The notes beneath the pieces were generated by a model that made no database searches, was not told the DNA's origin, and worked only from the letters and a program-made list of their open reading frames with translations. Positions 30,740 through 43,738 of a stretch of 44,119 bases of DNA are shown here, piece by piece (the first letter of the stretch is position 1; each line of letters opens with the position of its first letter). Where the stretch lies: IMG/VR virus record IMGVR_UViG_3300048597_000300, positions 1-44,119 of that record; one strand, 5' to 3'. The translations under genes were made by a program, and so were the position numbers. This DNA is from a virus.

Positions 30740-31990
30740 TTATCGCGTCCCCCATCCCTTATTTTTGACGGTAAACAGTGCGTGTAACGTCTGCCAAAAC
30801 ATCACAAATTGAGAGAAGAAGGAAAATAGAATTAATCCCCATACTCGATCCGGGGAAAAGAACACCAAAGGAAGATGCCTGATCACAGCCAGTCCCAAGA
30901 GGGCAGGGAGGATCACCAGAAACGCGAATGCTGGATCAATGATCATATTCAGCATTACTAAAAGAACCAGACCCACAGAAAGCAGGGGTAACACCAATTC
31001 CCATACTAATATCTCAAAGAAGAGAATTGGCTTGACTCGCCACATAAAGGGAAGAGCCACTATTGCTTCCTGAAAGAACCCGCGGCGCCATCGAAGTTGC
31101 TGTTTTAAAAACACCCTCAATGATTCCGGCGAACTGGTATATGCTATCGCTTCAGGACGGTATACCACATCGTAGCCATCGCGCAACACGAGGTTAGTTA
31201 AGTGACGATCTTCAGAGTACGTACACTTTTTACCTAAAAACTCCTCATTCACAAACTCATCCATCAGTGGCTTTATTACTTCGGCACGGTATCCAGCAAG
31301 GGCGCCGCTGCAGCACGCCACCTGACCAATTGCAGACTGCGCCCTACGCGCCATATTTAAGGCCGCCCAATAGTACGCCCCGGTCATTTGAGTGAGCCAG
31401 TTTGTCTTCTCGTTTAAAAGCTGTACATCACCACTAACCCCGCCAATATTTCCAGTCTTTAATGCTTCTACCATTTTTACGAATGCGTCAGGATGAAAGA
31501 CCGTATCACTGTCAGTAGTGACTATGTATTTAGCATTCCCTGAATACTCTTTAATGCCCGTATAAAGGCCGTGGCGTTTCCCCCTATTTTGCTCGAAGGT
31601 ATGCACTGTAATGTTTGGAACGGAAGCATACTTCACAAGGGTTTTTTCAACTCCATTGGTAGAGCCGTCATTAATGATGACAATTCGCTTGTTGCCTTTT
31701 GCCGCGAGGATGGATAGGATGCTTCGCTTCAGTAATGCCGGCTCTTCGTTATAGCAAGGAACTATCACACATACCTCTTCTCCATCGTACGTAGCAAATT
31801 TACGAGGGCGCATGTCTTCCTTGGCCAGAAGCGCAAAAATATACCATGTATGGCCCAGTGCCAGCGTGATATAGGCAACGTAAAAACCGTACCAGATATG
31901 CGGCATAAAGCCGGTTACGTACAATCCTAAAAGGAAAAGCGATACCGCAATTACACCAAAAAGGGAATAGTAGATTGCTTTAACTGACAT
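30740..31990 (-). CDS. Processive GT2 glycosyltransferase, hyaluronan-synthase-like
   Basis: About 416 residues (422 from an alternative start at 32008). Two N-terminal membrane spans precede a GT2 catalytic domain with PCYNEE (79-83), DGS (108-110), TDSDT (159-163), the priming-loop-like CSGALAGYR (227-235), EDRHLTN (260-266) and the QQLRWRRG (297-304) motif of processive synthases; further membrane spans follow. The order matches class I hyaluronan/chitin/NodC synthases, which polymerise a polysaccharide and extrude it. In a phage it could coat infected cells with a new polymer and block other phages or change host attachment. The ATG at 31990 overlaps the preceding gene by 11 bases. Confidence 0.88.
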   Translation of the reverse strand: MSVKAIYYSLFGVIAVSLFLLGLYVTGFMPHIWYGFYVAYITLALGHTWYIFALLAKEDMRPRKFATYDGEEVCVIVPCYNEEPALLKRSILSILAAKGNKRIVIINDGSTNGVEKTLVKYASVPNITVHTFEQNRGKRHGLYTGIKEYSGNAKYIVTTDSDTVFHPDAFVKMVEALKTGNIGGVSGDVQLLNEKTNWLTQMTGAYYWAALNMARRAQSAIGQVACCSGALAGYRAEVIKPLMDEFVNEEFLGKKCTYSEDRHLTNLVLRDGYDVVYRPEAIAYTSSPESLRVFLKQQLRWRRGFFQEAIVALPFMWRVKPILFFEILVWELVLPLLSVGLVLLVMLNMIIDPAFAFLVILPALLGLAVIRHLPLVFFSPDRVWGLILFSFFSQFVMFWQTLHALFTVKNKGWGTR

Positions 31991-32273
31991 GCCCGGAGAA
32001 TGCGGCAATTAGGTTGCCGAGGATCGTAGCTCGCTTACAGTGTGCGACTGCGCGTCGTTCAGGAAGGGTTTCACATTTACGCTCAGCCTCTTCCTTCCGG
32101 ATTGTAAGACGCTCAATAATCCTTTCGAATGGACGCATATCATGTCTGACGTGATCGCGGCCGTTGGTTGCATATGCGTAAGTAAGCCCACTTTCATCGT
32201 GATTTGCAACAACCCCGAAGGTATATGCACCAAGCAATGCGAACATAAACACCCAAATAAAAATCTTTTTCAT
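31980..32273 (-). CDS. Secreted or membrane-anchored small protein (97 aa)
   Basis: A 97-residue protein with a strong signal sequence (MKKIFIWVFMFALLGAYTF) and a charged helical remainder with two cysteines. It overlaps the genes on either side within the minus-strand operon. It may be a periplasmic or surface partner of the glycosyltransferase; the sequence itself shows no known domain. Confidence 0.6.
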   Translation of the reverse strand: MKKIFIWVFMFALLGAYTFGVVANHDESGLTYAYATNGRDHVRHDMRPFERIIERLTIRKEEAERKCETLPERRAVAHCKRATILGNLIAAFSGHVS

Positions 32274-32661: not shown

Positions 32662-33144
32662 ATGAACGAAACCCTTCTGGGGCTTTTGGATCGATCACCC
32701 GTGCCAAAGCGACGGGTCATTTTTGACTATGCGGTGTCGTGTTTGGGTAAGGATATTTCACCAATTCAAAACGAACTTGCCTGTATGGAGTCCGTCGAAA
32801 CCATCATGGGTGCGGCGACCGGGAAAAAGATCGGGGCAGGGGCTTCAACATATTGGGGTCAGGTACTTCTAGACAAACAAAGTTTCCCCCATTTCGGCTG
32901 GCGATTTGTAAAAATCAAAGAGAGTCAGGCGCGCCCCGGGGATCTGGTAATTTCAGCCAGTGGGTACGGCGGTAGTAGGACTGTGTCAAATGGGCACGTG
33001 GGCATTGTAGGTGAAAACGAACAAATAATGTCTAACAACTCAAAGACCTTTAAGTGGGATGCGCATTATACGTTTGCAACATGGCGGCAGCGTTACGTGG
33101 TCGAGGGCCGTTTTCCGATGAATTTTTACAGGGTAATTAAGTAG
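32662..33144 (+). CDS. CHAP/NlpC-like peptidoglycan hydrolase (putative endolysin)
   Basis: A 160-residue papain-fold amidase/endopeptidase candidate. Cys41 in ACMESVE begins the predicted catalytic helix, His112 lies in SNGHVGIVGEN, and a polar residue (Asn125/126) in IMSNNS completes the usual C-H-N triad. RPGDLVIS before the His motif is the standard GD-V strand. The end (WRQRYVVEGR..NFYRVIK) matches a family of phage proteins with this fold. It follows promoter copy 4 without leader and heads a lysis cassette. It has no signal peptide, in keeping with holin-dependent release. Confidence 0.75.
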   Translation: MNETLLGLLDRSPVPKRRVIFDYAVSCLGKDISPIQNELACMESVETIMGAATGKKIGAGASTYWGQVLLDKQSFPHFGWRFVKIKESQARPGDLVISASGYGGSRTVSNGHVGIVGENEQIMSNNSKTFKWDAHYTFATWRQRYVVEGRFPMNFYRVIK

Positions 33145-39487: not shown

Positions 39488-39556
39488 ATGCGATTCCTGA
39501 CCGTAATAGTCGGAATCAGTATGGTACTCGCATTTATAGGCTTTCTATTTGGTTAA
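39488..39556 (+). CDS. Possible membrane micropeptide (22 aa)
   Basis: A 22-residue reading frame (MRFLTVIVGISMVLAFIGFLFG, shown only as hydrophobic core MVLAFIGFLF) that is one membrane span. It ends one base before the SPFH gene. Too short to be certain. Confidence 0.3.
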   Translation: MRFLTVIVGISMVLAFIGFLFG

Positions 39557-39557
39557 A

Positions 39558-40370
39558 ATGTTTAAACTCATTACAGCTGGTGTCATGGCATTCGTCATTC
39601 TCGTGACCACGCTTGTCGCCTTCACTACGGTTGAAACTCAGGAACGCGGAATTGTTACACGCTTTGGAGAGGTAACAGAGGTATTGGAACCAGGGCTGCA
39701 TTTTGTAAATCCATTTACTTCGACTGTCACCATCATGGATGTAACGGTACGCGCTTTGCCGGTTGAAAAACTCTCTTACTCGAAAGATTCACAGACCGTT
39801 GCGGCACAGGTTACGGTCAACTATCAGCTGAATCCTGCAATGGTGACACAGGTATTTAGTGAGGCTCGAAATGACTATGAGGCACGGTATGTCATTCCGT
39901 CTGTAAACGGCGCCATTGAAACTGTCTTCACTCGCTATACCGCACAGGGGATCATCGACAATCGCTCAAAGATTCCGTTTGAAATTCAGGAAAGTCTTGG
40001 CAATCTTGCTTCCCGCGGAATCATTATTTCGAAGGTTGAGCTTACCAATTTCGACTTCGATGATGCATACGAAGAGGCTGTAAAAAATAAGCAGGTGCAG
40101 GAACAGCAGGCACTGGCACAGGTAAACATCACTCGGCAGGAAGAAGAAAAAAAGAAACAGGAAATTCTTAAAGCAGAAGCACTGGCCGAAAAGACCCGAT
40201 TGGAAGCTGCTGCACTTGCTTCCCAGAACGGTGAAAAGGTAATTGGAAAAATCTACGCTGAAGCAGCTTTGGCCGCATCGAACAAGTGGAATGGCGTGAT
40301 GCCGGTCAACATGTATGCAGACGCACCGATGCCGTTTATCAAGGTAGAGAACGCAGCTGCTGCTGAATAG
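39558..40370 (+). CDS. SPFH/prohibitin-like membrane protein
   Basis: A 270-residue protein with an N-terminal membrane anchor (about residues 4-25), then the SPFH core (ERGIVTRFGEVTEVLEPGLH, residues 30-49; a classic Band-7 opening), and a coiled coil rich in Glu, Lys and Ala (about 175-225). Host SPFH proteins such as HflK/C control FtsH proteolysis and membrane microdomains. A phage copy may shield phage proteins from FtsH or stabilise the envelope. It immediately precedes a prepilin-like gene, so both may act at the host surface. Confidence 0.88.
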   Translation: MFKLITAGVMAFVILVTTLVAFTTVETQERGIVTRFGEVTEVLEPGLHFVNPFTSTVTIMDVTVRALPVEKLSYSKDSQTVAAQVTVNYQLNPAMVTQVFSEARNDYEARYVIPSVNGAIETVFTRYTAQGIIDNRSKIPFEIQESLGNLASRGIIISKVELTNFDFDDAYEEAVKNKQVQEQQALAQVNITRQEEEKKKQEILKAEALAEKTRLEAAALASQNGEKVIGKIYAEAALAASNKWNGVMPVNMYADAPMPFIKVENAAAAE

Positions 40371-40371
40371 T

Positions 40372-40536
40372 ATGCAAAGAGGATTTACGCTCATTGAATT
40401 GCTCGTAATGATTGGCATTCTCGGCACGTTGGCTTGGTTGCTTATTGGGTCTATCCAGAGAAGTAACGTGATCGATGAACCATGTGACGATCCCAGTCGA
40501 CTTACTGAGTGCCTTAAAGCAAAGCAAAATGGCTAA
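40372..40536 (+). CDS. Mini type IV prepilin-like protein (54 aa)
   Basis: A 54-residue protein with a textbook type IV prepilin start: MQRG followed by FTLIELLVMI, i.e. the PilD cleavage glycine, phenylalanine +1 and glutamate +5, then the hydrophobic alpha-1N stretch to about residue 26. Beyond that only a short tail with two cysteines (38 and 47) remains, far shorter than normal pilins. It could enter the host pilus or its assembly machinery and cap or block it. The stop overlaps the next gene's start. Confidence 0.8.
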   Translation: MQRGFTLIELLVMIGILGTLAWLLIGSIQRSNVIDEPCDDPSRLTECLKAKQNG

Positions 40537-40690
40537 AGGATTTTTACTCGCAGTTGTAGCAATCCTCATTTTGTCCGGCATCTTATGGGTTGCATACACA
40601 ACCGGGAAAATCGCAGCCCGGAAATCGCGGAAGGTAGTAATGCGAGACGTGCTTACTAAGAAATCTGATGATCATGTCTCTTCAAATTGA
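40529..40690 (+). CDS. Small membrane protein (53 aa)
   Basis: A 53-residue protein starting at ATG 40529, inside the end of the prepilin gene. Residues 5-22 form one membrane span (LLAVVAILILSGILWVAY), followed by a basic cytoplasmic-type tail (KSRKVVMRDVLTKK). Probably acts with the prepilin-like peptide; function unknown. Confidence 0.55.
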   Translation: MAKGFLLAVVAILILSGILWVAYTTGKIAARKSRKVVMRDVLTKKSDDHVSSN

Positions 40691-41395: not shown

Positions 41396-41827
41396 ATGCC
41401 AATTAAAAACTATACAACCAAAGAACCGGCTCAAAAGAGTCTGCAAAAGATTCAGGATATGCTGGTTTCCCATGGAGCGGTTGGGATTCAAATGATGTAC
41501 GACGGTGACCGACGAATATCTGCAATCTCTTTTGCGCTTCCGTTCAACGACGGCAGGAATCTGTCATTTCAGCTTCCATGCCAGTGGCGGCGGTTTCAAA
41601 TGGTGCTTAAAGAGCAACAAATTAAACGGTGGGAAGATGATGAGTACGCGTATCGTGTAGCGTGGGCAAATCTGCGTGACTGGGTCGCGTCACAAATGGC
41701 ACTGTACGAAACCCAAATGGTGACCATGCCGCAGATATTCTTGCCGTTTGTTGAAGACGGTAATGGTCAAACGCTCTTTGAAAAGATTGCACAGAATCCG
41801 AACTTCTTACTAGGTAGCGGCGAATAA
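41396..41827 (+). CDS. Conserved phage hypothetical protein (143 aa)
   Basis: A 143-residue protein matching a family seen in many unrelated phages: IKNYTTKEPAQKSLQKIQDM at the start, YRVAWANLRDWVASQMALYE near residue 82 and VTMPQIFLPFVEDGNGQTLF near the end. Function unknown. It stands directly ahead of the RNA ligase gene. Confidence 0.75.
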   Translation: MPIKNYTTKEPAQKSLQKIQDMLVSHGAVGIQMMYDGDRRISAISFALPFNDGRNLSFQLPCQWRRFQMVLKEQQIKRWEDDEYAYRVAWANLRDWVASQMALYETQMVTMPQIFLPFVEDGNGQTLFEKIAQNPNFLLGSGE

Positions 41828-41828
41828 C

Positions 41829-42893
41829 ATGAAAGTCCCAACATACGAAGAAATAAAGCCGTATATCGAAAAGAAGCTGGTGTCAGAGCAATCACACCCC
41901 GAAGATCCAAACGTTCGAATCTTCAACTACACTCAGCATTGCCAATTCGAGCAGGCATGGAATGACGTTACGAGACAGTGTCGCGGACTGATCCTCAATG
42001 TAGCCACTGGTGAGGTTCTAGCACGACCATTTCCGAAGTTCTTCAACTATTCCGAACACATAGACAAAGGCTGGCCCATTCCGGAGGAAAAGCCGATCAT
42101 CACTGAAAAGCTCGATGGATCACTCGGCATCCTTTATTGGCTGAATGGAAGGGCGTGGATTGCAACAAGAGGAAGCTTTACTTCCGATCAGGCAATGTGG
42201 GCCACGAATTGGTGGCGTCAGAATGTCAGCAAAATAGTGAAGATTGAAACCGGGCTTACGCATCTATTTGAAATCATTTATCCCGAGAATCGGATTGTGG
42301 TTCCGTATGACTTCTCTGGTCTGGTGTTTCTGGAAACCATCGATAACGAAACCGGCAAACCGCCCACTAAGGTTGAAAAGCGGGAAGGATTCCGTACAGC
42401 AAAGCGGATCCGTACAACTGACCTAAAGACATTAGCAGAAATGGATGAACCTAACGGGGAAGGCTTTGTGGCATATTTCCCCCGTGCGAATATCCGAATC
42501 AAAATCAAGTTTCCGGAATACGTGAGGTTGCACAAGCTCATTACACGGGTTTCTGAAATTGCCATTTGGGAGCATATGCGGGACGGAAAACCGCTCAATG
42601 ACCTGATAGAGAAAGTACCCGATGAATTCTTTAAGTGGGTAGGGGAAGTATCCGGGCGCATTGGACGCGAATTCAACGCCATTGCTGAAACTGTTGTACT
42701 CGACTATGAGCGGATTTGCCTTGACCGACCGATCGATGGCCCTACCCGAAAGGAATTGGCATTGGAAATTCAAAAGACGAAATACCCCGGTTTGGTCTTC
42801 TCGTTGCTCGACGACAAAGATTTCAAACCTGCAATATGGAGAATGGTGAGGCCAAAAGGAGCATCGGCCTTTAAAACCGACATCGATCTATGA
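41829..42893 (+). CDS. rnl1: T4 Rnl1-type RNA ligase
   Basis: A 354-residue ATP-dependent RNA ligase. TRQCRGLILN (48-57) and ARPFPKFFNYSEH precede motif I, EKLDGSLG, with adenylated Lys94; motif III is FEIIYPENRIVV (147-158), motif IV EGFVAYF (211-217) and motif V KIKFPEY (225-231). A helical C-terminal domain follows as in T4 Rnl1. The gene overlaps a polynucleotide kinase/phosphatase gene (ATGA), so the pair can repair broken tRNAs. It implies that the host uses anticodon nucleases against phages. Confidence 0.92.
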   Translation: MKVPTYEEIKPYIEKKLVSEQSHPEDPNVRIFNYTQHCQFEQAWNDVTRQCRGLILNVATGEVLARPFPKFFNYSEHIDKGWPIPEEKPIITEKLDGSLGILYWLNGRAWIATRGSFTSDQAMWATNWWRQNVSKIVKIETGLTHLFEIIYPENRIVVPYDFSGLVFLETIDNETGKPPTKVEKREGFRTAKRIRTTDLKTLAEMDEPNGEGFVAYFPRANIRIKIKFPEYVRLHKLITRVSEIAIWEHMRDGKPLNDLIEKVPDEFFKWVGEVSGRIGREFNAIAETVVLDYERICLDRPIDGPTRKELALEIQKTKYPGLVFSLLDDKDFKPAIWRMVRPKGASAFKTDIDL

Positions 42894-43738
42894 AAAGAAT
42901 AATTCTTACTAAAGGACTGCCGGCATCGGGAAAGACTACGTATGCTAAAGAGATTCTTAAAAAGGGCGCAGGTGCGTATAAACGGGTCAATAAAGACGAT
43001 CTGCGTGCCATGCTCGATGACGGGAATTGGTCGGGAAGCAATGAGAGATTCGTATTGAAGATCCGCGATCAGATCATTCTGCAGGCTATCGGAGAGGGCA
43101 AGCATGTAATTGTCGACGACACGAATCTTAACCCCATCCATGAACAGCATATCCGCGATCTGGTAAAGGGACTTGGCGTGGTCGAGATTGCCGATTTTAC
43201 CCATATTCCAGTCGAAGAATGCATTGCCCGGGATCAGAAGCGTACTGTCGGACGGGTTGGCGAAAAGGTAATTAAAGACATGTACAAAAAATACCTAAAG
43301 CCGAACAACAAAGTGCCTGTCGATCACACTCTTCCCCCTGCAATCATATGCGACATAGACGGTACGCTAGCCATCATGGATGGGCGATCCCCATTTGAAT
43401 GGTTGAGGGTGAAGGAAGACAAAGTTAATCGTGTGATAAAAGATTTACTGGCACGCTTCGATGAAGCGACAACCATCATTATGGTTTCTGGTAGAGACAG
43501 CGTATGCCGGGAGCTTACGACCCAGTGGCTTGAGGAAAACGGAATTCGCTTTAATGCCCTCTACATGCGCGATCAGTATGACGCGCGTAAGGACTCAATC
43601 GTCAAGCGAGATATATTCGATAACCACATACGGGGAAAGTTTAACGTTAAGTTTGTTCTTGATGACCGCAATCAGGTAGTGGAGATGTGGCGGGATCTTG
43701 GACTCACCTGTTTACAAGTGGCTGAGGGAGATTTTTAA
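42890..43738 (+). CDS. pseT: Polynucleotide 5'-kinase / 3'-phosphatase (T4 Pnkp type)
   Basis: A 282-residue two-domain enzyme. Kinase domain: P-loop GLPASGKTT at residues 9-17, followed by VDDTNLNP near 75-82. Phosphatase domain of the HAD class: ICDIDGTLA with Asp155 and Asp157, VSGRD at 199-203 and the terminal LDDRNQVVEMWRDLGL. It prepares cleaved RNA ends (5' phosphate, 3' hydroxyl) for sealing by the RNA ligase encoded immediately upstream and overlapping by four bases. Domain order equals that of T4 Pnkp. Confidence 0.93.
   Translation: MKRIILTKGLPASGKTTYAKEILKKGAGAYKRVNKDDLRAMLDDGNWSGSNERFVLKIRDQIILQAIGEGKHVIVDDTNLNPIHEQHIRDLVKGLGVVEIADFTHIPVEECIARDQKRTVGRVGEKVIKDMYKKYLKPNNKVPVDHTLPPAIICDIDGTLAIMDGRSPFEWLRVKEDKVNRVIKDLLARFDEATTIIMVSGRDSVCRELTTQWLEENGIRFNALYMRDQYDARKDSIVKRDIFDNHIRGKFNVKFVLDDRNQVVEMWRDLGLTCLQVAEGDF

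Follow-up and report, generated by a model that had tools for sequence, protein, structure and literature searches.

A mini type IV prepilin encoded beside an SPFH protein in phages: recurrence of the gene pair and a possible role in interference with host pili

The window, which is the whole stretch of 44,119 bp analysed here, carries terminase and portal genes, and also a gene for a very short type IV prepilin that begins immediately after a gene for an SPFH (prohibitin-like) protein. The features concerned are as follows:

39489..39556, plus strand: 22-aa hydrophobic ORF (MRFLTVIVGISMVLAFIGFLFG) upstream of the SPFH gene, recognized in the sequence, relevance uncertain
39558..40370, plus strand: phage SPFH/prohibitin-like protein, 270 aa, with an N-terminal TM helix (PF01145, E 4.1e-31)
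40372..40536, plus strand: mini-prepilin, 54 aa (MQRGFTLIELLVMIGILGTLAWLLIGSIQRSNVIDEPCDDPSRLTECLKAKQNG), from ATG 40372 to TAA 40536, recognized by its sequence and PF07963
40529..40690, plus strand: 53-aa single-TM ORF, recognized in the sequence, with ATG 40529 rather than 40475 as the likely start
32662-33144, same strand as the pair: endolysin-like gene, about 6.5 kb from the pair

The 54-aa product is matched by the Pfam N_methyl family PF07963 over its first 24 residues (25.3 bits versus a cut-off of 21.2, E 1.1e-5), and the 44,119-bp record contains no other N_methyl gene. It has the N-terminal features of a type IV prepilin, namely a short basic leader (MQRG), a G before F at the predicted cut G4|F5, an E at +5 and a hydrophobic helix of about 20 residues (alpha-1N). 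A loose prepilin motif would be expected 0.005 times by chance in the six frames of the window and was observed once. The C-terminal globular alpha/beta domain is absent, and the helix is followed by a polar tail of about 30 residues, which contains two cysteines (PCDDPSRLTEC) and has no domain match. The initial annotation, which had described a prepilin signal and alpha-1N with almost no globular domain, is therefore confirmed on this point. Four PHROG families contain the same motif (phrog_13280, phrog_11263, phrog_10597 and phrog_3433); they are small and unnamed except for the last, which is called 'pilin'. With the window pilin as sole query, neither tblastn nor back-translated scans gave matches, and no relatives of it alignable past the motif were found.

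The SPFH gene stops at 40370, 1 nt before the mini-prepilin ATG. Its product shows the Band 7 domain, the N-terminal membrane segment and the C-terminal helical region of the family, and profile comparison against the PDB retrieved prohibitin-2 (6.7e-47), HflK (3e-17) and QmcA (3e-12). An AF2 monomer model (pLDDT 78) had the human prohibitin complex 8rrh as its best Foldseek match (5e-17), and the SPFH-NfeD complex QmcA-YbbJ was found to be a structural neighbour as well. As for the small ORFs around the pair, the SPFH gene of record L002, whose product is 55% identical to the window SPFH, is also preceded by two tiny TM ORFs. The overlapping downstream membrane protein of the initial annotation is real as a reading frame, overlapping the mini-prepilin stop by 8 nt (ATGGCTAA), but its start is likelier to lie at 40529 than at 40475. 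Pfam, PHROGs and the viral contigs hold no relative of this ORF, and it was rejected as a conserved module partner; conservation ties the mini-prepilin to the SPFH gene before it, so the proposal of a two-gene unit with the downstream ORF is not supported.

The pair is flanked by an exonuclease and a DnaD-like loader upstream and by an RNA ligase and PNKP downstream. At 41829-43738, a T4 Rnl1-type RNA ligase is directly followed by a kinase and PNKP-type phosphatase protein, which together form a complete RNA repair pair. A 143-aa protein at 41396-41827 resembles, by eye, the protein encoded immediately before SPFH in L181 (3064-3501); its family was found in 29 other viral contigs, and 0 of the 19 tested have SPFH. 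On the minus strand (30740-32008), the window also has a gene for a membrane glycosyltransferase of family 2, GtrB-like (PHROG 841, O-antigen conversion), which is possibly a second gene for surface modification or exclusion. Scans with the terminase and with a 186-aa neighbour gave no useful relatives.

The pairing of a short prepilin with SPFH recurs in uncultured viral records. A first scan of viral contigs searched for DNA encoding GFTLIELLV with no condition on SPFH. It yielded many pilins, and the majority of those that are short adjoin SPFH (L034, L028, L066, L071, L073, L095, L102/L116, L106 and L111). The count was restricted to complete pilin ORFs preceded by 1 kb or more of sequence; among the 61 non-redundant ones, L102 and L116 being near-duplicates, SPFH linkage was found for 9 of 13 short prepilins and for 0 of 48 long ones (Fisher p 4e-8). 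A second scan, seeded with SPFH only, gave 80 loci and a downstream prepilin at 13 of them, which is not an unbiased frequency because the seed alignment consisted mostly of pilin-linked proteins; it added L132, L152, L161, L180 and L181, as well as a 32-aa form in L202. Altogether, 16 of 60 SPFH phage IMG/VR records (the window and fifteen others) have a prepilin gene, one per record, downstream of SPFH and within about 0.4 kb of it, while the remaining 44 have neither an adjacent prepilin nor one anywhere in the record. L048, with no SPFH neighbour, was left out of the counts. Gaps of -4 to +4 nt between the two genes are frequent, suggesting that their translation is coupled, and one small gene lies between them in L071, L102 and L152. 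Nineteen control phages, selected through a third gene, had neither N_methyl nor SPFH (0/19 each), and no prepilin followed SPFH at 80 cellular loci holding the nearest SPFH relatives.

The same prepilin N-terminus also occurs in front of larger domains. In L181 (4789-5157), an SPFH-linked protein of 122 aa has it fused to about 90 aa of extra domain, and in L081 and L112 other small domains stand behind it with no SPFH nearby; phages may therefore use prepilin helices as general anchors.

Cultured phages were searched in INPHARED by tblastn. The L106 pilin matched nothing even at E 10, and this result, like that with the window pilin, is probably due to masking of the hydrophobic stretch; the mini-prepilin of L152, a query with a longer tail, did give matches. 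It matched 114 records, mainly of Synechococcus, Vibrio, Aeromonas, Pseudomonas and Acinetobacter phages, and nearly all of them infect genera known for type IV pili. SPFH matched 493 INPHARED records, and phages of Staphylococcus, Escherichia and Klebsiella, though SPFH-positive, are absent among the 114. SPFH followed by a pilin-like gene was found in the T4-like Aeromonas phages Aes508, Aes012, 50AhydR13PP and AhFM11, where the prepilin part has about 75 residues and the annotated CDS of AhFM11 is longer at its start. In the Xanthomonas jumbo phage PhiXhv-12 the order is reversed, the pilin lying immediately before SPFH; a nearly identical pilin is present in Ep032, a record marked UNVERIFIED. 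Conservation next to SPFH in other phages, the check named in the initial annotation, is thus confirmed: beyond the window, the arrangement is present in fifteen other IMG/VR records, in Aeromonas phages of the T4-like group and in one jumbo phage of Xanthomonas, and SPFH plus pilin is well supported as a conserved module. Both genes are present but apart in Nankokuvirus, KVP40-like phages, Aeh1 and phi-ST2, PhiW-14 and Acibel004 have a mini-prepilin without SPFH, and S-CAM7 and Vibrio 033B likewise lack SPFH. Two records were set aside: MT836441, which has two pilins and its own prepilin peptidase, is probably a bacterial contig, and a Salmonella 'phage' match is a bacterial assembly.

Some of these genes have been annotated before. 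ORF040c of Aeh1 and the mini-protein of the orf086/orf087 pair of Aes508 are annotated as pilin-like in GenBank, and in Synechococcus and Acinetobacter phages pilin annotations have been given to longer genes of this type. The latter annotations, together with the intact alpha-1N and E+5, would suit the idea that the mini-prepilin enters the pilus and modifies rather than abolishes it, to the benefit of the phage, for instance through pilus marking or retraction, changed DNA uptake or better adsorption of progeny. This seems unlikely, in that the mature peptides have only 25-50 aa and lack the globular domain that forms the pilus surface, and the minimal pilins of Aeh1 (28 aa) and PX29 (31 aa) end right after alpha-1N; that of PhiW-14 has 44 aa.

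In Aes508, the lysis-inhibition gene rI is located about 0.4 kb away from the pair. With the small single-TM product and the endolysin-like gene on the same strand of the window, this location could point to a pinholin- or antiholin-like peptide for lysis or lysis timing. However, neither the prepilin cut site nor E+5 is required for such a peptide, and the window pair, about 6.5 kb from the endolysin, is situated between replication and RNA-repair genes, so that a role in host takeover fits better than one in lysis, which we consider very unlikely.

Comparison of 19 aligned mini-prepilins showed that G-1, F+1 and E+5 are invariant. A simple membrane anchor has no need of the glutamate at +5, which is important in the assembly of pili. 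The pilins of L071 and L152 are 70% identical, with saturated synonymous change and dN of 0.22, and dN/dS is about 0.2 for the pairs Aes508/AhFM11 and Ab06/LSL4; the pairs with few changes, Aes508/50AhydR13PP (0.77) and Aeh1/PX29 (0.70), are uninformative. Homologous mini-prepilin pairs, the window copy not among them, are under purifying selection. The tails, including their cysteines, are conserved between L071 and L152 and among the Aeromonas pilins, which indicates that the tail matters too. The tails are nevertheless highly variable, with total protein lengths of 32 to 122 aa, so one binding target is not implied. Many tails, that of the window included, have an even number of cysteines; paired cysteines in L071 (2050-2295), L152 (4811-5062), L224 (2998-3225) and L132 (4722-4964) recall the disulfide-bonded D-region of full-length pilins and possibly form a minimal periplasmic disulfide loop. 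The selection data also bear on whether the gene is a truncated host pilin, captured by chance and functionless. Bacterial genomes are rich in prepilin N-termini and the window copy has no close relative, but diverged phages share the linkage, each with a single copy in its genome, and homologous pairs have dN/dS of about 0.2; for the mini-prepilin class, chance capture is already contradicted, and we regard it as highly improbable.

On an SPFH tree of 85 rows, a quick tree with some long branches, the pilin-linked proteins are scattered, with 15 changes of state, at least 8 of them forced by well-supported branches. This scatter implies repeated gains and losses of the pair, whose gene order has almost always been the same. 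L002 and L003, which have the closest SPFH relatives (55%), lack the pilin; they were dropped as a refutation of the pairing once it proved patchy on the tree. SPFH occurs without a mini-prepilin in most phages (44 of the 60 records) and a mini-prepilin sometimes without an adjacent SPFH, so neither strictly needs the other adjoining.

As to hosts, 37 of the 80 nearest cellular relatives of the pilin-linked SPFH proteins, taken as a group, belong to Patescibacteria (hand count). In addition, the L180 SPFH is 70% identical to a gene on a chromosome-like stretch of a Ca. Kaiserbacteria MAG (L230:3992-4852), which suggests a recent exchange between host and phage. On these two sequence comparisons, Patescibacteria are plausible hosts for some carriers. 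For the window, these comparisons do not establish the patescibacterial host implied by the initial annotation, and the cultured carriers infect Aeromonas and Xanthomonas.

Neither a prepilin peptidase (PilD, PF01478) nor a PilC-like platform protein was found in the intact phage records tested, so processing and any action on pili would have to use host machinery. This supports host-dependent processing of the mini-prepilin, the cleavage itself being predicted from its signal. The protein keeps the features for cutting and pilin docking (G|F, E+5 and alpha-1N) and drops the globular domain needed for the fibre surface, and poisoning of the pilus, leading to superinfection exclusion, would be its best-fitting function. 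During the early or replication phase, SPFH and the mini-prepilin might be made by coupled translation. Host PilD would then cut the 4-residue leader and methylate F+1, the phage having no peptidase of its own, and a mature helix of about 50 aa, with E+5 and alpha-1N kept and the globular domain missing, would be located in the cytoplasmic membrane. There it may compete with real pilins at the PilC/PilB platform or in the growing fibre, which would stop pilus extension. Prohibitin and HflKC form rings or cages, and the SPFH protein, from which a similar assembly is expected, could concentrate the mimic or shield it from membrane proteolysis; the outcome would be loss of pili and exclusion of pilus-dependent phages. 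That the mini-prepilin is a PilD-processed pilin mimic, held or stabilised by SPFH and interfering with host type IV pili in superinfection exclusion, is a tentative reading to which we give a little less than an even chance. It is possible, but with less confidence, that a widespread phage system uses an SPFH cage to concentrate a decoy pilin, processed by PilD, which jams or encloses the type IV pilus platform of the host.

The main rival to pilus interference takes the mini-prepilin as a membrane subunit that partners the SPFH ring, in the position that NfeD/YbbJ has beside QmcA. Its prepilin segment would then be a handy self-associating helix, and the module would serve membrane proteases or membrane integrity, not pili. 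The strict adjacency to SPFH, the QmcA-YbbJ complex as a structural neighbour, the extra domain of about 90 aa on the L181 helix and the frequency of SPFH in phages of non-piliated hosts are all consistent with such a subunit. However, a plain anchor does not need the invariant E+5 and G|F cut site, mini-prepilins exist in phages without SPFH, and the carriers in INPHARED are largely phages of hosts known for type IV pili; moreover, no NfeD-type OB domain was matched in the mini-prepilins or in the longer L181 form, whose extra domain matches no NfeD model. We judge a partner subunit unrelated to pili to be rather unlikely.

The components belong to known families, and the pair of SPFH and mini-prepilin has apparently not been discussed. 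In the literature searched, whose coverage of subscription journals and preprints was thin, no paper was found on the pair or its function, nor one giving phage SPFH proteins a function. A strictly linked prepilin mimic offers a concrete, testable hypothesis for a subset of phage SPFH proteins and would add an unrecognised class of phage pilus modulators. Tests are possible with the cultured carriers 44RR, Aes508, PhiXhv-12, Nankokuvirus and KVP40-like phages, and specific inhibitors of type IV pili might be developed from the small peptides. If the decoy-pilin cage is true, superinfection exclusion would gain a new molecular class, and SPFH scaffolds a new use, in phages ranging from uncultured ones to those of Aeromonas that are T4-like.

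Among known systems, the precedent for the proposed function is PfsE (PA0721) of Pseudomonas phage Pf4, a 30-aa inner-membrane protein whose binding to PilC blocks type IV pili, so that phages dependent on pili are excluded (PMC8764522). The mini-prepilin is likewise a tiny phage-encoded protein, the inner-membrane location and the effect on pili being those reported for PfsE; PfsE differs in its 30 aa with a YAWGW aromatic motif, and the available text of that article mentions neither a prepilin signal nor an SPFH partner (PMC8764522). Tip of phage D3112 and Aqs1 of phage DMS3 are pilus inhibitors binding PilB, as cited in the same article (PMC8764522). Both switch off type IV pili during infection, as the mini-prepilin may do. 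Their target is the assembly ATPase PilB, and to our knowledge neither is prepilin-like. Type IV major pilins share the class III signal, alpha-1N and E+5 with the mini-prepilin, and even the short PilA-N of Geobacter has about 61 aa when mature; unlike these pilins, the mini-prepilin has no globular domain, is usually shorter, and is phage-encoded in one copy beside SPFH. Prohibitin, HflKC and QmcA-YbbJ have the SPFH fold in common with the phage partner gene, but they are cellular, with FtsH or NfeD as partners, and no prepilin accompanies SPFH at the 80 cellular loci. Comparable genes are known from the T4-like Aeromonas phages 44RR, Aeh1 and Aes508. Table 3 of Petrov et al. 2006 lists two 44RR ORFs with consecutive numbers, 097c with an N-methylation motif and 098c with SPFH, and also Aeh1; the paper does not use the word 'pilin', and in the passages found the 44RR and Aeh1 genes appear only in this Pfam table, with no discussion or function (PMC1524935). 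In Aeh1, the mini-protein with the N-methylation motif (ORF040c) is far away from SPFH, whereas 44RR ORF097c/ORF098c, adjacent by their ORF numbers, and Aes508 orf086/orf087 place such a mini-protein next to SPFH, as in the window.
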